A stretch of DNA of 17,421 nucleotides. Source: Gammaproteobacteria bacterium (lineage in GTDB: Bacteria; Pseudomonadota; Gammaproteobacteria; Chromatiales; Sedimenticolaceae). Made by a program: the position numbers and the translations under genes. The notes below the pieces were generated by a model. The model ran no database searches. It worked only from the letters and a program-made list of their open reading frames with translations, and had not been told where the DNA came from. The stretch spans positions 1 through 17,421 of the forward strand of contig JAGRHB010000007.1 of assembly GCA_020445245.1 (NCBI GenBank), read 5' to 3'. Each line of letters opens with the position of its first letter. Position 1 is the first letter of the stretch. Positions 2,288-17,421 of this stretch are shown here, piece by piece.

Positions 2288-3565
2288 ATGACCACCGGCA
2301 CGCTGGCCCTGACAATTCTCGTCGCGATCCTGGCACAGGTCGGCGTCGCGGCATTGATCGGAATCCTCCGGCACCGACGTCGATTCCGCGATCTCGATGG
2401 GCGCGGTGGCGAGTCGCGCACCCCTGCGGCCGCCCCCGACATACCGACGCCGGCTGCCGGGCCTTCCTCTATCGGTCAGCCCTGGTCGGGCTACAGGGAA
2501 TTCTCGGTGCAACGCCGGGAGTTCGAGGACCAAAGCCGGTCCGTCTGTTCCTTCTACCTGGCGCCGTGCGACGGAAAACCGCTGCCCGCCTTCCGGCCGG
2601 GGCAGTTCCTGACCTTTCGACTTGCCGTCAATGATTCGGCCACGGGCCGACCCGGCAACGTGGTGCGCTGTTATTCACTGTCCGATTCCCCGCGGCCGGA
2701 CCACTACCGGGTGTCGATCAAGCGCGTCCTGGCCCCGCCCGATCACCCAGACGTGCCGCCCGGCGTTTCGTCGGGGTTCTTCCACGATCACGTGCAGGCG
2801 GGTGATCGCCTGATGATCAGGCCACCCTCGGGACACTTTCACCTCATCGAGGATGAACCGCTGCCCATCGTGTTGATCGGCGGTGGCATCGGCATCACCC
2901 CGATGCTGAGTATCCTGAACAGCGTGCTGGAGCGTGGTATCGGACGAGAGATCTGGCTCTTCTATGGCGTTCGCAACGGTAGCGAGCACGTCATGAAGCG
3001 ACAACTGCAGACGCTTGCCGAACAACATGACAGTTTTCACCTGCATGTCTGTTACAGCGCCCCGCGCGAGGATGAGGTCGAGGGCGTCGATTATGACCAC
3101 CGCGGCCGGGTCGATCTGCCCCTGCTGCGCAACACGCTCAGGCTGACGCGCCACCAGTTCTACGTCTGTGGACCCAGGCCGATGATGGAGAGCCTGGTGC
3201 CGGGGCTGGAAGAATGGGGTGTCGATAGTGGTGACATCCACTATGAGTCTTTTGGCCCGGCGACACTGGCCAAACACGAAAAGCCCACGCCGGCAGCTAC
3301 GCAAGCACAACCTGTCAACATCACCTTCAGCCGATCCGGGAAACGTCTCACCTGGGATCCCGCGGCGGGTTATCTGCTCGAGTTCGCCGAGGCCAATGGT
3401 ATCGATGTGGATTCGGGCTGCCGCGCCGGCAGCTGCGGTTCGTGTCAGACAGTACTGACGGCCGGCAAGGTTGAATACGGCCAGCAGCCGGACGCCGACA
3501 TCGAACCCGGACACTGCCTGTTGTGTATTGCCACGCCCAGCTGCGATCTCGTACTGGAGGCCTAG
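2288..3565 (+). CDS. Membrane-anchored FAD/NAD(P)H reductase with C-terminal 2Fe-2S ferredoxin domain
   Basis: The 425-residue protein is modular. An N-terminal hydrophobic helix lies at about residues 5-27, followed by a Pro/Ala-rich linker. A ferredoxin-NADP reductase core carries the FAD motif RCYS (127-130), the nucleotide-binding loop GGGIGITPM (198-206) and YVCGP (292-296). The C-terminal plant-type ferredoxin domain has Cys378, Cys383, Cys386 and Cys413 in the C-x4-C-x2-C...C pattern of a 2Fe-2S cluster. This order matches NAD(P)H reductases that feed one electron at a time to a partner. The helix should tether it to the inner membrane with the catalytic part in the cytoplasm. It is the first gene of an operon with a heme-b-like membrane protein 10 bases downstream and a multiheme cytochrome. 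An alternative ATG lies at 2276; neither start has a strong ribosome-binding site. Confidence 0.9.
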   Translation: MTTGTLALTILVAILAQVGVAALIGILRHRRRFRDLDGRGGESRTPAAAPDIPTPAAGPSSIGQPWSGYREFSVQRREFEDQSRSVCSFYLAPCDGKPLPAFRPGQFLTFRLAVNDSATGRPGNVVRCYSLSDSPRPDHYRVSIKRVLAPPDHPDVPPGVSSGFFHDHVQAGDRLMIRPPSGHFHLIEDEPLPIVLIGGGIGITPMLSILNSVLERGIGREIWLFYGVRNGSEHVMKRQLQTLAEQHDSFHLHVCYSAPREDEVEGVDYDHRGRVDLPLLRNTLRLTRHQFYVCGPRPMMESLVPGLEEWGVDSGDIHYESFGPATLAKHEKPTPAATQAQPVNITFSRSGKRLTWDPAAGYLLEFAEANGIDVDSGCRAGSCGSCQTVLTAGKVEYGQQPDADIEPGHCLLCIATPSCDLVLEA

Positions 3566-3575
3566 AGGAACCGCC

Positions 3576-4154
3576 ATGGACCGATCACTGATCAGTAAAG
3601 AAGTCATCCCCTTTCTGTTGATGTTCGGCACGCTGATCCTGGCAACCATCGTCAGTGATGCCGTGTTGCACTATCTCGATCTGGTATGGATAGGTCGTTA
3701 CCTGGGGATTCCCGGCACCCTGCTGATACTGCTGTCCCTCTTCTATTCGATGCGCAAGCGAAAGGTGGTCAGTTTCGGCAGGCCGAAAACCCTGCTCAAG
3801 CTGCACGAGACCCTGGCCTGGCTGGGCGCGCTGATGATCCTGGTTCATGCGGGCATCCATGTCTACGCGATCCTGCCCTGGCTCGCTCTGGTTGCGATGC
3901 TGGTGAATGTGCTGAGCGGCATGACCGGCAAGTTCCTGCTCGATCGATCGCGCCGCTTCGTGGCAGAGAAAAAGGCTGCCTACGCAAACCAGGGGCTGCC
4001 CGAGAACGAGGTCGAAAAGCGGCTGTTCTGGGACGCCACGACCTTCGAGTTGATGAAGAAATGGCGTGCCGTGCACCTGCCGATCACGCTGGCCTTTGCC
4101 GTGCTTGGCGTCACCCACATTTTCAGCATCTTTCTATTCTGGCAATGGAAATGA
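3576..4154 (+). CDS. Histidine-rich integral membrane protein, probable heme b carrier
   Basis: The 192-residue protein has four or five predicted membrane segments, at about residues 10-31, 43-58, 76-98, 100-115 and 167-188. Histidines lie within or at the ends of the helices (His32, His77, His91, His95, His167, His181), as in heme-b proteins of the ferric-reductase and cytochrome b type. A basic cytoplasmic loop (RKRKVVSFGRPK) separates helices 2 and 3. The start ATG follows GAGGAA, and the gene is 10 bases from the reductase and overlaps the cytochrome gene. I infer that it carries electrons across the membrane from the reductase to the cytochrome. The specific family name is not certain, and heme binding rests on the spacing of histidines. 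Confidence 0.75.
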   Translation: MDRSLISKEVIPFLLMFGTLILATIVSDAVLHYLDLVWIGRYLGIPGTLLILLSLFYSMRKRKVVSFGRPKTLLKLHETLAWLGALMILVHAGIHVYAILPWLALVAMLVNVLSGMTGKFLLDRSRRFVAEKKAAYANQGLPENEVEKRLFWDATTFELMKKWRAVHLPITLAFAVLGVTHIFSIFLFWQWK

Positions 4155-4942
4155 AAACGAACAAAGCCCTGCTCATCGTAGCCGTCAATCTGGTCATTCT
4201 GGTGGCGCTGGCGGTTTTCGCACCTCACCTGATGATCGTCCCCGGAAAAGTCACTGAGGCCCACGACGAGATCGCCAAGGATTGCTTTGCCTGCCACACG
4301 CCATTCCTTGGCAGCAGCCCGGCCAAGTGCATCACCTGTCACAAGGTGGCGGAGATCGGCCTGAAGACGACCAAGGGGCTGCCCATCGCCAGGGAGAAGA
4401 AGAACGTCGCCTTTCACCAGAAGCTGATCGAGGACGATTGCGTCGCCTGCCACAGCGATCACAAGGGCGTGCAGGCCTTCCGCCCGATCGGTCAGTTCTC
4501 GCACACGCTGCTGCAGCCAGGGCTGCAGGAACAATGCGACAGCTGCCATAGCGGACCAGGGGACGCCCTGCACCTGAAGATCGAGGGAAACTGCGCGCAA
4601 TGCCATACGCAACAGGCCTGGCTGCCCGCCACCTTTGAGCACGAGAAGTACTTCCGCTTCGACCGGCACCACGACACCGACTGTGCGACCTGCCACGTCA
4701 ACAACGACTATGCCGGCTACACGTGCTACGGCTGTCACGAGCACTCCCGATCCAAGATCCGAGCCGAGCATGTCGAAGAAGGGATCTATGACTACGAAAA
4801 CTGCGTGGATTGCCATCGCAGTGGCGATGAGGACGAAGCGGAGCGGATCTGGCGCTCAGGATGGTTCGGGTCGGGAAACTCCAGGCCGCTTGATACCGAT
4901 CGCCATGAAAGCGAAAGACGCAGGCGCCATGACGACGACTGA
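4151..4942 (+). CDS. Membrane-anchored octaheme cytochrome c
   Basis: The 263-residue protein has an N-terminal uncleaved-looking helix (about residues 6-24) and eight CXXCH heme-attachment motifs. The first cysteines are at residues 45, 60, 97, 129, 148, 178, 192 and 218. Extra histidines before several motifs, such as RHHDTDCATCH, could be second axial ligands, as in class III (cytochrome c3-like) multiheme proteins. The domain should lie in the periplasm. The ATG overlaps the stop of the upstream gene (ATGA), which indicates translational coupling; an in-frame ATG at 4145 is also possible. The C-terminal tail is basic and then acidic (RRRRHDDD) and lacks motifs. As the last gene of the operon it is the likely electron outlet, to a periplasmic reductase or another cytochrome. 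The final acceptor is unknown. Confidence 0.93.
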   Translation: MKTNKALLIVAVNLVILVALAVFAPHLMIVPGKVTEAHDEIAKDCFACHTPFLGSSPAKCITCHKVAEIGLKTTKGLPIAREKKNVAFHQKLIEDDCVACHSDHKGVQAFRPIGQFSHTLLQPGLQEQCDSCHSGPGDALHLKIEGNCAQCHTQQAWLPATFEHEKYFRFDRHHDTDCATCHVNNDYAGYTCYGCHEHSRSKIRAEHVEEGIYDYENCVDCHRSGDEDEAERIWRSGWFGSGNSRPLDTDRHESERRRRHDDD

Positions 4943-9232: not shown

Positions 9233-9427
9233 ATGATCGTCTCGTTTCGCACCGACGAACCCCACGACGAGCGCTTGGCTGCCAAGGCTGCCAAGACGCT
9301 GCAAGGGCTACCAGGGGTCCGGTCTGTGAATCTCGAAGGGGGGAGGCTGGTGGTTGTTGCCGACAACGAGTACTCCCTGGAGGACATCGTCACAGCACTC
9401 GCCTCAACTGGGTTTCTCGGCGCGTGA
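9233..9427 (+). CDS. Small heavy-metal-associated-domain-like protein lacking CXXC
   Basis: The 64-residue protein has the size and pattern of a ferredoxin-like beta-alpha-beta-beta-alpha-beta metal-chaperone (HMA) domain: MIVSFRTD, then AAKAAKTLQGLPGVRSVNLEGGRLVVVAD, then YSLEDIVTALASTGF. The segment GLPGVxSVxL is characteristic of the HMA fold. The metal-binding GMxCxxC loop is replaced by RTDEPHDER and the protein contains no cysteine, so it should not bind Cu(I) in the usual way. The ribosome-binding site is weak. It lies between the DUF2892 gene and the peroxidase gene on the same strand. It may be a degenerate paralogue or an interaction module. Confidence 0.6.
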   Translation: MIVSFRTDEPHDERLAAKAAKTLQGLPGVRSVNLEGGRLVVVADNEYSLEDIVTALASTGFLGA

Positions 9428-9548
9428 AAGCACTGCCGAACCATTCCTCTTCGAGAAGAAGGGCATCGAGCGTAGCAAAAGCTACAGAAGGGCGAATACC
9501 GCTTGGGTAACTTCAGGACGACTGTCCCGTTCACTGCCGGAGTCCACC

Positions 9549-11000
9549 ATGGAGTTCTCGATTGGCCCCGTTCTATTGCTCGGCACACTGGCCGTGATTG
9601 CCGCCCTGGTCGTACTTCACCAAATGGTCCACTGGGACCTGGCTCCCGCTGCACGCCTTGCTGGAAAGCGGCGTTGGCTGCTCATCGGGGCACTCGGTGC
9701 CGGGGTAATCGCGTTTACTGTAAAGCTGACGGCCATCGTCGCAATCTTGGGGTTCTCGTACTTTGTCGACCCGGGAGCAGGCGTCGCCGGCAACACCGCA
9801 AGCCGGTCCTTGTCATCGGGCGGGCGGACTGGCTTTGGTTGGGTTTTTCTACCTGACGTCCAAACTGGCGTCGAAGCTGTTCCGCGAACCGCACAGCCTT
9901 ATGTCTGGGAAGCGCTTCCAGACGTAGCGCCGGCACCGGAAACGAACCCAACGACAGCAGAGAAGATCGCCTTGGGCAGGCAACTGTTCAACGACGCTCA
10001 TTTGTCGAAGGACAGGAGCATCTCCTGTGCCAGCTGTCACAATCTGCTTGAGAAGGGGGGTGGTGATGGCGAACCCACTGCGCTCGGGATTGGCGGAGCG
10101 ACCGGTCCGCGAAATACGCCGACCGTCTGGAATTCGGGATTCCAGAATCGTTTCTTCTGGGATGGCAGGTCGAGCTCTCTGGAAGACCAGGCCAAAGGCC
10201 CACTCCTCAATCCCCTCGAAATGGGCATGCCGTCTTTGGACGCTGTCGAGGATCGAGTGAAGACACGGCCGCATTACGCGGCAGCCTTCGCGTCGGCATT
10301 TGGTGCCGACGCGCCGATCACGATCGATCGCATCGTGGAGGCGATTGCCGCCTATGAGCGAAGTCTTGTGACATCCGACACGCCCTACGATCGATTCGTG
10401 AACGGCGATACACAGGCCCTCAGCCAGCAACAGATCCGGGGTATGGGGTTATTCGAATCACTCGGCTGCATCACTTGCCATCATGGCCCGAACTTCAGCT
10501 CCGCCAGCGTCTTTGATGGTGGCGCCCCGTTGCGGATATTTCCGGCGACCCCCACGCCATTCGAAAAAGACTATGAACTGCTCGAAAAGGCACATCACCG
10601 CGAGGGCGGGATCAGATCGGCTTGGCGTGTACCTTCCCTGCGAAATGTCGCCCTGACGGGGCCTTGGCTGCACAATGGAGCAGTCGACGATCTCTCGGAT
10701 ATGGTCAGGATCATGGCTGCCGCCCAGCTCGGCTGGTCCGGGCACTACCTGCTCTGGTCGGAACAAAAGAAAACTCTGCAGGAAATCGACAGACCGGTTC
10801 CCAGTGACGATCAGGTCGATGACATCGTTGCCTTCTTGCACAGCCTGAGCAGCGAACGCCTGGTCGCTGCGCAGTCGGACTCAGGGCATGCTCACATCAG
10901 CGATTCCGCACGGCACGACGAACTGGCTCACGAGCCCGGCCCCATGGTCGCTTACACTGCTCCACGCACCGAATCACACGTGGAAGAAATGAGTGACTAA
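9549..11000 (+). CDS. Membrane-anchored diheme cytochrome c peroxidase (CcpA/MauG family)
   Basis: The 483-residue protein joins two N-terminal hydrophobic helices (about residues 5-24 and 43-70) to a diheme peroxidase domain. Heme motifs are CASCH at 160-164 and CITCH at 307-311. Family blocks include GPRNTPTVWN, FFWDGRSSSLEDQAKGP, NPLEMG, PSLRNVALTGPWLHNGAV and, near the end, DDIVAFLHSL. These enzymes reduce hydrogen peroxide in the periplasm with electrons from small cytochromes; MauG relatives oxidise proteins instead. Ordinary CcpA proteins are soluble with a cleaved signal peptide, so the two-helix anchor is unusual. The tail after residue 440 is His-rich and specific to this protein. 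ATG 9549 follows GGAG. The stop overlaps the start of the Crp/Fnr gene. Confidence 0.92.
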   Translation: MEFSIGPVLLLGTLAVIAALVVLHQMVHWDLAPAARLAGKRRWLLIGALGAGVIAFTVKLTAIVAILGFSYFVDPGAGVAGNTASRSLSSGGRTGFGWVFLPDVQTGVEAVPRTAQPYVWEALPDVAPAPETNPTTAEKIALGRQLFNDAHLSKDRSISCASCHNLLEKGGGDGEPTALGIGGATGPRNTPTVWNSGFQNRFFWDGRSSSLEDQAKGPLLNPLEMGMPSLDAVEDRVKTRPHYAAAFASAFGADAPITIDRIVEAIAAYERSLVTSDTPYDRFVNGDTQALSQQQIRGMGLFESLGCITCHHGPNFSSASVFDGGAPLRIFPATPTPFEKDYELLEKAHHREGGIRSAWRVPSLRNVALTGPWLHNGAVDDLSDMVRIMAAAQLGWSGHYLLWSEQKKTLQEIDRPVPSDDQVDDIVAFLHSLSSERLVAAQSDSGHAHISDSARHDELAHEPGPMVAYTAPRTESHVEEMSD

Positions 11001-12451: not shown

Positions 12452-12478
12452 AACGCTAAAAAAAATTTGCCTGTGTAC

Positions 12479-12494
12479 TTGACCGACCGGTCTA
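12479..12494. promoter_or_regulatory. TetR operator, copy 2 (upstream of tusA)
   Basis: The sequence is identical to the 16-bp operator in the tetR promoter and lies 42-57 bases before the tusA start. A TTGCCT hexamer at 12467-12472 could be the -35, with TCTATT or TATTTA overlapping or adjoining the operator as -10, but spacing is less ideal than in copy 1. An A-run directly upstream (12458-12465) may raise promoter strength. Exact repetition in two promoters is strong evidence for a shared regulator. Confidence 0.75.
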
Positions 12495-12535
12495 TTTATC
12501 GCGGCAGCGCCGCACTCAACGACAAGGAGAACGAC

Positions 12536-12766
12536 ATGAGCGACACCATCAACACCTTGGACGCCCGGGGCCTCAACTGCCCGCTACCCATCCTCCGGAC
12601 CAAAAAAGCCATCGCCGGCATGACTGTCGGCGACGTACTGGAGATCACGGCCAGCGACCCGGGGTCAGTCAAGGACCTCGCGTCCTTCTGCAGCCAGACC
12701 GGACACGAGCTGATCACCAGCGAAAAGGCCGGCGATCACTTCCTGTTCCGTATCCGCAAGAACTGA
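12536..12766 (+). CDS. tusA: TusA-family sulfur carrier protein
   Basis: The 76-residue protein has the TusA/SirA fold signature LDARGLNCPLPILRTKKAI, with the sulfur-carrying Cys15 in the CPxP motif at residues 15-18. A second cysteine (Cys52) lies in FCSQTG. TusA passes persulfide sulfur between a sulfurtransferase and downstream acceptors, for thio-modification of tRNA or, in sulfur oxidisers, towards cytoplasmic sulfur oxidation. Linkage to dsrE2 rather than to tRNA-thiolation genes points to the dissimilatory type. The ATG follows AAGGAGA. It is 14 bases upstream of the dsrE2 start codon and behind a TetR operator copy. No rhodanese gene, common in such clusters, is present. Confidence 0.93.
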   Translation: MSDTINTLDARGLNCPLPILRTKKAIAGMTVGDVLEITASDPGSVKDLASFCSQTGHELITSEKAGDHFLFRIRKN

Positions 12767-12780
12767 GCCGGGAGCAAGCC

Positions 12781-13386
12781 ATGATCACTACAAAGACACA
12801 AACAGATACGGTTCCCGCTGATCTCGACCAGTGGTTCGACCGACGCTTCGAAGAAAAGATGGTCGAACGCGAGGCATCGCGTATCCCGGCGATGACGATC
12901 ATCGCGACCAAGGGCACGCTCGACCAGGCCTACCCGCCTTTCATCCTCGCCTCGACGGCCGCGGCGCTGGGCTGGGAGGTCTCAGTCTTCTTCACCTTCT
13001 ACGGCCTGAATCTGCTGAAACGTAATCTCGATCTCCGGGTCACGCCTCTGGGCAACCCGGCCATGCCGCTGAAACTGCCCGAAGGTCCGACCTGGATCAA
13101 AGGCAAGGCCCTGCCCATCCCCACCTCGGTCATGAGCCTCATGCCCGGGTTCGAGAACATGGCCACCTACATGATGCGCAAGACCATGGACAGCAAAGGC
13201 ATTGCCCGCATCAACGAGTTACGCGACCTGTGCATCGAGGCCGAGGTCAAACTGGTAGCCTGCCAGATGACCGTGGATCTGTTCGATTACGGCAAGGATG
13301 AGTTCATCCCGGAGATCACCGAGTGGGTCGGCGCTGCCAGTTTTCTGCCCAGGGCATTGCAGGCGGATGTGAACCTCTTCATGTGA
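12781..13386 (+). CDS. dsrE2: DsrE2-type (DsrE/F-like) sulfurtransferase
   Basis: The 201-residue protein matches the DsrE2 group of DsrE/F-like proteins: a leading charged helix, the fold core MTIIATKGTLDQAYPPFILASTAAA, a GWEVSVFFTFYGL strand-loop, and the VKLVACQMTVDLF block. Cys161 in VACQM is the likely sulfur-binding cysteine, and Cys151 lies nearby. In sulfur-oxidising bacteria DsrE2 is usually encoded with TusA and a rhodanese and takes part in cytoplasmic persulfide transfer, though its exact role is unresolved. The start follows GGGAG with six-base spacing, and the gene is closed by a strong intrinsic terminator. The long hydrophobic stretches suggest membrane association, as reported for some relatives. 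Confidence 0.9.
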   Translation: MITTKTQTDTVPADLDQWFDRRFEEKMVEREASRIPAMTIIATKGTLDQAYPPFILASTAAALGWEVSVFFTFYGLNLLKRNLDLRVTPLGNPAMPLKLPEGPTWIKGKALPIPTSVMSLMPGFENMATYMMRKTMDSKGIARINELRDLCIEAEVKLVACQMTVDLFDYGKDEFIPEITEWVGAASFLPRALQADVNLFM

Positions 13387-15229: not shown

Positions 15230-17421
15230 TCAGTCGCCGCCCGCCAGGAACATCCGCGCGGCAGTGACATCCCGGCTCTCGCCCACCGCCGCCAGTGATT
15301 CACATAGCGTCTCCAGTTGCGTGCGCACCTCATGATCGTCCGGCTGTAACCGCGCCAGGTCCAGCGTCGCACGCAGCTCCAGCGTCCGCGCATTCTGCTG
15401 CCGCGCCACCTCGATCGCGTGCAGGCAGGATGCCCGTACCGACTGCTTGTCCACACCCTGACGCAGCAGCAGTTCAGCTTTCAGACGATGCAGTTCGGCA
15501 TCCCACCAGTGATCCTGATGTGCTCTGCTCGAATCGAACGCCTCGGCAAGTAGTTGTTGCGCCCCGCGCAAGTCGTTTTGGCGCAGTTGAATCTCGACCA
15601 CCAGACTTAACCAGTAGGGCAACCTGGCGCGCGAATCCGTGGCCTTGAAATGCTCTATACCGCGCAACATGTCCTCCACGTCCACCGCATCCCTGTCACG
15701 AACACCGGTGGCCCACTGGCTGAGCAGGGCGCACCAGTGTTCGTAGTACGAGAACTGGTGGCGCGCGCTGGCCTGCACGGTAGCTTCACATTGTGCGCTC
15801 ATGGCATCGGCTTCGCGTTCGAGCTGATGCAGGACGGCCGAGTAACCGGCAGCGATGATCGCGCTCGAGGGTTTGTCGTCGTCGGCCGCAATGCGGCGGC
15901 CTTCACTGGCGCATTCCCGGGCTCGTCCGGGGTGGCCCAACAACCACATCACGTGCGCCAGGGTCACCAGGGCGTGGACCTCGCAATTGGTGGCGAAGGG
16001 CTCAATGCCGTCTTCGCCTGCGATCGGGCGGCGTGCGAGCGCCTGTTCCAGCCGACTGCGCGAGGCCTCGAGCTCCCCCTTCAGGAACAGCGCCATCCCG
16101 GTCATAAAGTCCGCGGCCAACAGGATGCTCTGGCTGTCCACCGTCTGCCCGAGGCGGCGCAGTTGCTCTGCAGCATCCAGCGTATTGGGGACATCGGCCC
16201 GCACAAAGTAAAAGGTACTCAAGCCGAACAGAATGTTGCGCAGGTGATCGGTGCGCTTGAGCGTTTGAGACAGCGCACGGGCGCGGCTCAATGCCTGCCA
16301 GATCTCGGATGAGGCCCAACCGTGGGTCAGGCGTAGCAGGGCCGACAGCCTGAGTTGCAGTTCGAACTCAGTTTCCACACGCCACGGGTCGCGATCAAAG
16401 TGTTCCAGCAATGCCAGGGCGCGGTAAAGGTGCGCGGTCGCCTCACGGTACGCGCCCAGGTCGCCGGCGGCCAGCGCGGCACGCTGGTAAAAGTCCATGG
16501 CCTTACGATACTCACCGGCCTGCGAAAAATGTGCGGCAATTGCCGCGTTCACCGCGTCGAGGTTGGCGGCATGTTGCCGCCGGATTGCCTCGGCAATGCG
16601 GCGGTGCCAGATGCGTCGACGGGCGGTGCCGATCTGCCGGTAGGCAACGTCCCGCAACAAGTCGTGCGAGAAATCGTAGCGTGCCGCAGATTCGACAAGG
16701 ATATTGCGCGCCACCAACTCGTCCAGGCAGTGCGCGAGCTTATCCTCGTCCTGTTGTGTGATGTCTGCGAACAACTCAAAACTGAAGCTGCGCCCGGCCA
16801 CTGCAGCCAAGCCGACGATCTCCTGCTGCCCGGCGCTCAGTTGCTGTATACGCGCGGCGATCAGCGCCTGGATCTTCTCCGGGATCACACCCTCGCGTTG
16901 GCCGAGCTCCGGCAACAGGTGCGGAAGATCGTCGCTGCCGCTATCCCACTTGGCATCCGTGCCGAAACCGGAACGAATACTCTCGATGACAAACAGCGGG
17001 TTGCCTGCCGAACGTCGGAACAATTCGGATAACGTACTGGCGACCAGGGGCTGGTCCGCCACCGACAGCGCCAGCTTTGCGGCATCGTCCTCGCCCAGGG
17101 GCTCCAACGCGATGTCGTGCAGAGCACCGTCGCGCTGCAATTCAGCCAGCAGGGTGTTCAATGTATTGCCGGTTGGGGTTTCGCCGGTGCGCATGGTGGC
17201 AAGCAGCAGGAATGCACCGTCACGCCGGACACGCGCAGCAGCAGTGCGCAATTGGAAATGCAGCCAGGACAGGGTGTCGTCATCGCACCACTGCAGGTCA
17301 TCCAGGACCAGCAAAAGCGGCTTGCGGTGGGCCATGATCGCGACGCTCAACGCCTCGAAGAAACGTTGCCGTTGCGAACCGCCGGTCAATGGCGGCAGCG
17401 GTGTCAGTTCGCGGCCCTCCA
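15230..17421 (-). CDS. Large AAA ATPase/TPR regulator, C-terminal part (5' end outside window)
   Basis: Some 729 residues are visible on the minus strand and the frame is open to the window edge; the first potential initiator inside, a TTG at 17389, is not a real start. Near the visible start LLLVLDDLQWCD is a Walker B-like motif of the STAND/AAA ATPases found in LuxR-type, SARP-type and adenylate-cyclase-linked regulators. The Walker A loop would lie outside. ATPase helical domains follow (NPLFVIES, LSAGQQEIVGLAAVAGR), then about 450 residues of TPR-like helices (YRKAMDFYQRAALAAGDL, HLYRALALL). No C-terminal LuxR helix-turn-helix is present, so any DNA-binding, cyclase or kinase domain must be N-terminal. 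The gene converges on the FAD oxidase. Confidence 0.85.
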   Translation of the reverse strand, partial: EGRELTPLPPLTGGSQRQRFFEALSVAIMAHRKPLLLVLDDLQWCDDDTLSWLHFQLRTAAARVRRDGAFLLLATMRTGETPTGNTLNTLLAELQRDGALHDIALEPLGEDDAAKLALSVADQPLVASTLSELFRRSAGNPLFVIESIRSGFGTDAKWDSGSDDLPHLLPELGQREGVIPEKIQALIAARIQQLSAGQQEIVGLAAVAGRSFSFELFADITQQDEDKLAHCLDELVARNILVESAARYDFSHDLLRDVAYRQIGTARRRIWHRRIAEAIRRQHAANLDAVNAAIAAHFSQAGEYRKAMDFYQRAALAAGDLGAYREATAHLYRALALLEHFDRDPWRVETEFELQLRLSALLRLTHGWASSEIWQALSRARALSQTLKRTDHLRNILFGLSTFYFVRADVPNTLDAAEQLRRLGQTVDSQSILLAADFMTGMALFLKGELEASRSRLEQALARRPIAGEDGIEPFATNCEVHALVTLAHVMWLLGHPGRARECASEGRRIAADDDKPSSAIIAAGYSAVLHQLEREADAMSAQCEATVQASARHQFSYYEHWCALLSQWATGVRDRDAVDVEDMLRGIEHFKATDSRARLPYWLSLVVEIQLRQNDLRGAQQLLAEAFDSSRAHQDHWWDAELHRLKAELLLRQGVDKQSVRASCLHAIEVARQQNARTLELRATLDLARLQPDDHEVRTQLETLCESLAAVGESRDVTAARMFLAGGD

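Follow-up and report, generated by a model that had tools for sequence, protein, structure and literature searches.

In the 17,421-nucleotide stretch of contig JAGRHB010000007.1 analyzed here (hereafter designated the window), three tightly spaced genes encode a membrane-anchored flavin and iron–sulfur reductase (RED), a histidine-rich membrane protein (MEM), and an anchored octaheme cytochrome c (CYT), arranged as follows.

2288–3565, + strand: RED, 425 amino acids (aa), with an N-terminal membrane anchor, an FNR-type FAD/NAD(P) domain, and a C-terminal [2Fe-2S] domain (from the translation and Pfam/NCBIfam).
3576–4154, + strand: MEM, 192 aa, with five long helices, two HX13H pairs, and SGXXG at 114–118; a proposed di-heme cytochrome b.
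4145 or 4151 (ATG) to 4942, + strand: CYT, an anchored cytochrome c with eight CXXCH motifs.

RED and MEM are separated by 10 bp, and CYT overlaps the stop codon of MEM (a start at 4151 gives an ATGA overlap). An original prediction, made from the letters of this DNA, had described three closely packed genes with these cofactor motifs; the coordinates proved exact, and the RED domains, the histidine pairs of MEM, and the eight CXXCH motifs of CYT were all confirmed. Its statement that no terminal reductase adjoins the three genes also holds for the window genes tested against Pfam/NCBIfam.

The N-terminus of RED has a hydrophobic peak at residues 6–24 followed by an Arg-rich segment, and the start at 2288 is consistent with the N-termini of relatives. 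Against Pfam, RED matched NAD_binding_1 (E 1.3e-21) and, after the FNR domain, Fer2 (residues 358–417, E 8e-11), and FAD_binding_6 stayed under the cut-off (E 0.007). In its RCYSLS motif, R-C-Y-x-L-S is invariant, with the remaining position (x) at least 90% conserved (34 sequences). The nearest solved structures are those of flavohemoproteins (for the FNR part) and oxygenase reductases.

MEM gave zero matches against Pfam, NCBIfam, and PDB sequences; its homologues number 4604 at E <= 0.001, and it is 91% identical to a protein named from a metagenome-assembled genome (MAG) of Sedimenticolaceae. Six histidines (H32, H77, H91, H95, H167, and H181) are invariant in 62 sequences; alignment A3 omits L063, which has a 104-aa MEM stretch, and L040, whose start is unclear. 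In an AF2 model (pLDDT 80.9) with helices at residues 3–33, 44–59, 70–93, 99–138, and 158–188, the HX13H pairs H77/H91 and H167/H181 lie on helices 3 and 5, respectively, and the SGXXG motif, on helix 4, corresponds to S114-G115-x-x-G118. W163 precedes H167 on helix 5, and the residue at position 73 on helix 3 is Leu, not Trp. Judging from these motifs, MEM putatively binds two b hemes through the HX13H pairs. The invariant H32 and H95 form a further pair near the predicted outer face, where another heme or a quinone site is possible.

CYT exceeded the Pfam cut-offs for Cytochrome_C7, Cytochrom_CIII, and Cytochrom_c3_2, and nine histidines outside the CXXCH motifs are invariant in 23 sequences, sufficient for bis-His ligation. 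Its c-type heme attachment and its anchor (hydrophobic peak at residues 8–26) suggest a periplasmic location. The number of hemes was 8–12 in the Bacteroidota/Ignavibacteria loci and 10–18 in 8 of 10 further loci taken from a phylum sample; wrong-frame picks hid the cytochrome in the other two. Some relatives carry additional in-frame heme repeats (10 CXXCH in L042 and 12 in L041), so that the wire seems extendable, and P0132, P0136, P0138, and P0155 are also longer (305–450 aa). Past the last heme, the C-terminus (window 4850–4942) bears an Asp-rich tail (HDDD and similar), as in most of the 23 aligned relatives.

A scan of contigs yielded 63 loci, mostly from Gammaproteobacteria, including many sulfur-oxidizing symbionts and Sedimenticola, and the remaining carriers belong to SAR324, Rhodospirillales, Bacteroidota, and Ignavibacteria. 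Outside Bacteroidota/Ignavibacteria, RED directly preceded MEM in 35 of the 39 loci having at least 1300 bp of upstream sequence (the exceptions being L009, L020, L039, and L046), and CYT directly followed MEM in all 46 loci with enough downstream sequence. Among 274 genomes of the class of G013, a close MEM (E < 1e-80) was found in 8, a strong RED (E < 1e-100) in 9, and both in 7. Likewise, 147 genomes of one gammaproteobacterial order contained MEM (E <= 1e-40) in 40, RED (E <= 1e-90) in 38, and both in 37; the two genes were adjacent by coordinates in 36 of these 37, and in G412 RED lies at a contig end without MEM. RED, MEM, and CYT thus form a conserved operon in Gammaproteobacteria, an arrangement that is not due to chance because its gene order and motifs recur in relatives. 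The three-gene set is found there but not in Bacteroidota/Ignavibacteria, where, in the loci with flanking sequence, CYT followed MEM in 15 of 15 and RED stood beside MEM in 0 of 15.

For the gammaproteobacterial form, the picture drawn originally is broadly correct, but it errs in taking the three genes as one unit: the conserved core is MEM plus CYT, often without RED, and this core persists both in Bacteroidota/Ignavibacteria and in relatives that have lost RED. Indeed, G370, G371, and G408 have MEM and lack a full RED, and in G357 a full-length RED match is located elsewhere. At one G408 locus (L173), a 168-aa protein consisting only of the anchor, a linker, and the 2Fe-2S domain precedes an intact MEM, and at the second (L174) only an anchor stub is present. 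An anchor stub of RED is also retained in G370 (L160) and G371 (L158), the RED of G357 at L171 is in two pieces with the reductase core missing, and L009 and L020 show, as judged by eye, a mere trace of RED next to MEM. The ratio of nonsynonymous to synonymous substitution rates (dN/dS) of MEM and CYT, obtained by simple Nei–Gojobori counts with some pairs near saturation, was 0.07–0.29 in pairs of RED-reduced loci (n = 5) as compared with 0.04–0.19 in pairs with RED (n = 7). These low values indicate that MEM and CYT stay under purifying selection after the loss of RED. It follows that MEM–CYT functions in the absence of a RED of its own, and L173 shows that the 2Fe-2S piece can persist alone. 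In a SAR324 genome, RED is unlinked from MEM, is still anchored, and adjoins a multiheme cytochrome gene.

Kinship of MEM was found with the membrane protein of the PCC3 systems of iron bacteria, for which He et al. (2017, PMC5566968) gave a length of about 300 aa, a five-helix architecture with HX13H in helices 3 and 5, and an SGXXG motif. The MEM profile also matched longer membrane proteins (296–360 aa) that agree with this description and precede cytochromes with 6–27 CXXCH motifs (one cut by a contig end); PCC3-type loci often hold a second cytochrome with 15–43 CXXCH motifs. Both HX13H and SGXXG were present in all 15 PCC3-type membrane proteins examined, and hhalign of the 62 MEM sequences against these 15 gave 98.9% (E 2.4e-17, 111 columns), as compared with 0.6% for a reversed set and 2.8% for five b561 proteins; a larger MEM set gave 99.2%. 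This comparison covers 15 of the 17 PCC3-type loci (L111 and L112 left out), and the flavoprotein count given below covers all 17. Because no significant homology of the short proteins to the PCC3 proteins was apparent to He et al. (PMC5566968), the homology of MEM with PCC3 adds to the literature. Moreover, a CXXCH-masked CYT profile searched against 38 targets recovered four CYTs and 12 PCC3-region cytochromes at E <= 0.01, with one more of the latter at E 3.4. Of 228 control sequences, either reversed or shuffled, not one scored E <= 10. The first cytochrome of a region accounted for fewer of these matches than did the second, which is presumed to be extracellular; this points to family likeness and not orthology.

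MEM–CYT thus shares with PCC3 a homologous membrane protein, the HX13H pairs, SGXXG, and a related multiheme cytochrome, but differs in size (192 versus about 300 aa for the membrane protein, and 8 versus about 21 hemes for the cytochrome) and in the donor gene, which encodes an FNR–2Fe-2S reductase here and a Pyr_redox–4Fe-4S flavoprotein in PCC3. PCC3 also has a porin and an extracellular multiheme cytochrome, neither of which is among the window genes tested, and its WX3HX13H motif occurs on helices 3 and 5, whereas MEM has it only on helix 5. The kind is not new, in that it fits the porin-less class described in section 18 of PMC5566968. He et al. noted there pairs of a multiheme cytochrome and a short five-helix HX13H inner-membrane protein; shared with MEM–CYT are the short five-helix protein with two HX13H motifs, the adjoining multiheme cytochrome, the lack of a porin (the Pfam search of window proteins revealed none among those tested), and usually another redox protein in the cluster. 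The membrane protein gene is often downstream of the cytochrome in that class, whereas MEM lies upstream of CYT.

Which proteins adjoin the PCC3-type membrane proteins bears on the electron donor. At 13 of the 17 PCC3-type loci, a Pyr_redox plus 4Fe-4S flavoprotein or a Pyr_redox–cNMP–Fer4 fusion lies within 2.6 kb; among these 13, the match at L112 is only 113 aa long. At one further locus, L113, the flavoprotein lies at 5.9 kb, and none was found near L105, L116, or L110, the last of which has 1485 bp upstream. In addition, a run in G168 (L142, 6096–13522) comprises a RED orthologue, a 4-heme protein, a cNMP-type protein, a 279-aa HX13H membrane protein, and a 10-heme cytochrome. This run lies about 16 kb from a PCC3-like locus (L119) with an 826-aa flavoprotein–cNMP–Fer4 fusion. 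The occurrence of two flavoprotein superfamilies beside such membrane proteins argues for pyridine-nucleotide input, and the flavoproteins at the 13 loci favor both a cytoplasmic donor of the NAD(P)H type and an outward flow. By textbook energetics, the transfer of electrons from NAD(P)H to the outside is aided by the fall in redox potential as well as by the membrane potential, and transfer in the opposite direction would have to overcome each of them; this is the main reason for which we infer an outward direction. As to the NAD(P)H-to-heme route of the original prediction, an outward path is consistent with the sequence of motifs (FAD, 2Fe-2S, two b-heme sites, eight c hemes), and flavoproteins recur beside related membrane proteins. 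RED cannot be the sole input: because MEM plus CYT often occurs without RED, other donors must be possible.

We therefore propose, with a probability of roughly 0.6, that the three proteins constitute an inner-membrane conduit resembling the NADPH oxidases (NOX), with MEM plus CYT as the core, RED as one exchangeable donor module, and outward flow. RED would oxidize cytoplasmic NAD(P)H at its FAD and pass single electrons to its own [2Fe-2S] cluster, from which, in a presumed complex with MEM, they would move to the inner b heme (H77/H167), cross the membrane to the outer b heme (H91/H181), and be accepted by CYT into its eight-heme periplasmic wire. RED would be one among several exchangeable cytoplasmic donor modules for MEM plus CYT, and candidate acceptors are a soluble carrier such as DHC, elemental sulfur (S0), and metals. 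The adjacency of RED, MEM, and CYT, their co-occurrence in the class sample, the invariant HX13H pairs, the flavoproteins at 13 of 17 PCC3-type loci, the G168 run, and the L173 variant speak for this proposal.

Several observations weigh against it. MEM plus CYT occurs without RED in Bacteroidota/Ignavibacteria, in genomes bearing the FMO protein (eight loci read), and in the RED-loss relatives, and a donor search for these forms, covering RED and the PCC3-type flavoprotein, named no donor. Orthologue-level RED was not found in G001–G003 nor in six Bacteroidota/Ignavibacteria genomes searched, with weaker matches in G008 (32% identity, 3.7e-31) and G010 (9e-11); the PCC3-type flavoprotein, sought in 13 genomes, matched strongly only in 2 of 11 Bacteroidota/Ignavibacteria, on contigs other than that of MEM, and weakly in G434 and G002. 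The 279-aa membrane protein of G168 lacks SGXXG and is unmatched by the MEM profile. Likeness to the ferric-reductase families was not evident either: MEM did not reach the PF01794 cut-off, only 1 of 62 MEM proteins matching at E 0.011, a fold search with MEM was uninformative, and hhalign of MEM gave negative or weak results (1.9% and 2.5%), a comparison that has little power because the positive control, MsrQ versus FRD–FNR, gave only 10.7%. The PCC3-type proteins reached 41% against FRD–FNR fusions, yet 27.6% against their own reversed set. Furthermore, He et al. take the related PCC3 proteins as quinone-linked (PMC5566968).

The last point, published as a hypothesis of quinone-linked inward electron flow for PCC3 (PMC5566968), leads to an alternative that we consider possible but unlikely, namely that MEM, as a quinone-reactive cytochrome b, links CYT to the quinone pool by electron exchange, a role suggested by He et al. 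for PCC3/PCC4, with RED as an auxiliary input. The RED-less MEM plus CYT units would agree with such an enzyme, as might the invariant H32/H95 pair as a possible quinone site or another heme; however, flavoproteins at 13 of 17 PCC3-type loci and RED beside most gammaproteobacterial MEM genes would be unexpected for a quinone-only enzyme. A conduit working inward, in which periplasmic or extracellular electrons pass through CYT and MEM to make NAD(P)H at RED, appears very improbable, because textbook energetics makes this an uphill path for a pure electron wire with respect to both redox potential and membrane potential, although the carriers are often autotrophs needing NAD(P)H and electron uptake from iron has been considered for PCC3 (PMC5566968 and PMC12442390). 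Even less probable is that RED is an ordinary anchored oxygenase-type reductase for another partner, placed beside MEM incidentally. Its domains do resemble those of flavohemoprotein and oxygenase reductases, and the SAR324 RED is unlinked from MEM, but this RED still adjoins a multiheme cytochrome gene, and the membrane anchor, the near-constant place directly before MEM, and, in G168, the proximity of RED to another HX13H membrane protein argue otherwise.

The proposed NOX-like conduit can be compared with other known systems. CbcL/Cbc complexes of Geobacter combine an inner-membrane cytochrome b with multiheme cytochromes c feeding periplasmic carriers, and are quinol-linked, their b domain being of the HydC/FdnI type. 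In NADPH oxidases and in MsrQ with Fre (PF01794; PMC5676040), as proposed for RED–MEM–CYT, an NAD(P)H reductase of the FNR type supplies electrons to two b hemes, held at His-x12/14-His, and the acceptor is on the far side; in NOX and ferric reductases the b-heme sites show a similar His-pair pattern on helices 3 and 5 (PMC5566968, section 17, and PMC5676040). RED–MEM–CYT differs from these systems in its split genes, extra 2Fe-2S cluster, multiheme cytochrome acceptor, and lack of a family-model match. NqrF of Na+-NQR shares with RED the N-terminal anchor, FAD plus 2Fe-2S, and NADH oxidation, but its order is anchor, 2Fe-2S, FNR, reversed in RED with the 2Fe-2S domain C-terminal; RED scored 103.7 bits against TIGR01941 (cut-off 295), and no other Nqr genes were among the window genes tested.

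Elsewhere in the window (all + strand unless stated), a MauG/MbnH-like di-heme protein is encoded at 9354–11000, 4.4 kb downstream (CCP_MauG 7.8e-55; TIGR04039 below cut-off), and the sulfur carrier genes TusA and then DsrE2 (DsrE2 over the NCBIfam cut-off) lie at 12467–13386. On the − strand, the product of 15230–17419, which runs off the window, resembles the later part of the kinase/cyclase fusions of TOMM systems (TIGR03903, 2.2e-74, short of the family cut-off). The segment 5030–5480, judged by eye, is presumably a decayed IS3-type transposase end with an interrupting stop. A window scan for tRNA and Rfam gave zero matches, and a viral scan for relatives with 25 pattern stretches found none. 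The host is probably a sulfur-oxidizing gammaproteobacterium, given the 91% identity of MEM to the Sedimenticolaceae MAG protein and the presence of TusA and DsrE2.

The distribution of MEM was compared with that of possible partners. The phylum of G007 was sampled with 296 genomes, of which 58 contained MEM (E <= 1e-10), 73 the FMO protein (PF02327), a mark of green sulfur bacteria, and 54 both; MEM thus occurred in 54 of 73 FMO genomes versus 4 of 223 others. This overlap suggests a link with sulfur-oxidizing lineages. Within the order sample, dsrA (reverse dsr) was over the cut-off in 131 of 147 genomes; it was absent from 7 of the 40 genomes with MEM and from 9 of the 107 without, with no positive association, and the MEM–FMO link may therefore reflect ancestry or habitat. 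In the same sample, the MtrB-type porin PF11854 showed no association (over the cut-off in 5 of 40 carriers versus 16 of 107 others), and DHC (PF09626) was present in 38 of 40 carriers versus 66 of 107 others, counts uncorrected for kinship. Of the 71 non-redundant loci from taxa other than Bacteroidota/Ignavibacteria, 16 also had DHC at a distance of up to 6.5 kb, and in seven of these (L152, L155, L162, L163, L165, L166, and L172) it stands directly upstream of RED on the same strand. Among 93 MEM loci (six re-fetched copies included), 19 had a b561 within 6 kb, 9 had CDF metal-efflux proteins, and EF-hand proteins of two kinds occurred near 10 and 9 of them. In the SHP literature (PMC2909971), a quinol-linked cytochrome b passes its electrons to DHC; DHC could plausibly accept those of CYT. 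For A. vinosum, a study involving pyrite (PMC11267869) reports that diheme cytochrome, b561, and regulator genes were upregulated, and it also reports an 8-heme cytochrome; the accessible part of PMC8238504 mentions neither DUF4405 nor multiheme.

RED–MEM–CYT is thus a real and conserved system, of which we found no biochemical or operon description in the openly accessible literature searched, a weak indication of absence. A doubtful, speculative extension is that MEM plus CYT serves as a plug-in electron outlet of sulfur-oxidizing autotrophs in two phyla with exchangeable donors, which would be RED, Pyr_redox–4Fe-4S flavoproteins, and perhaps ferredoxin in green sulfur bacteria. If so, the periplasmic hemes would reductively mobilize elemental sulfur stored outside the cytoplasm or discharge surplus reductant, and the PCC3 systems would be outward NAD(P)H-linked conduits, not quinone-linked uptake systems. 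Electron transfer through the inner membrane is the role ascribed to PCC3-type membrane proteins, and the literature found calls their function untested and shows no donor. The three-gene version, having its own NAD(P)H reductase, offers a small expressible system for measuring the donor, the heme b path, and the direction, and thereby a testable role for a common family of hypothetical proteins with 4604 homologues.

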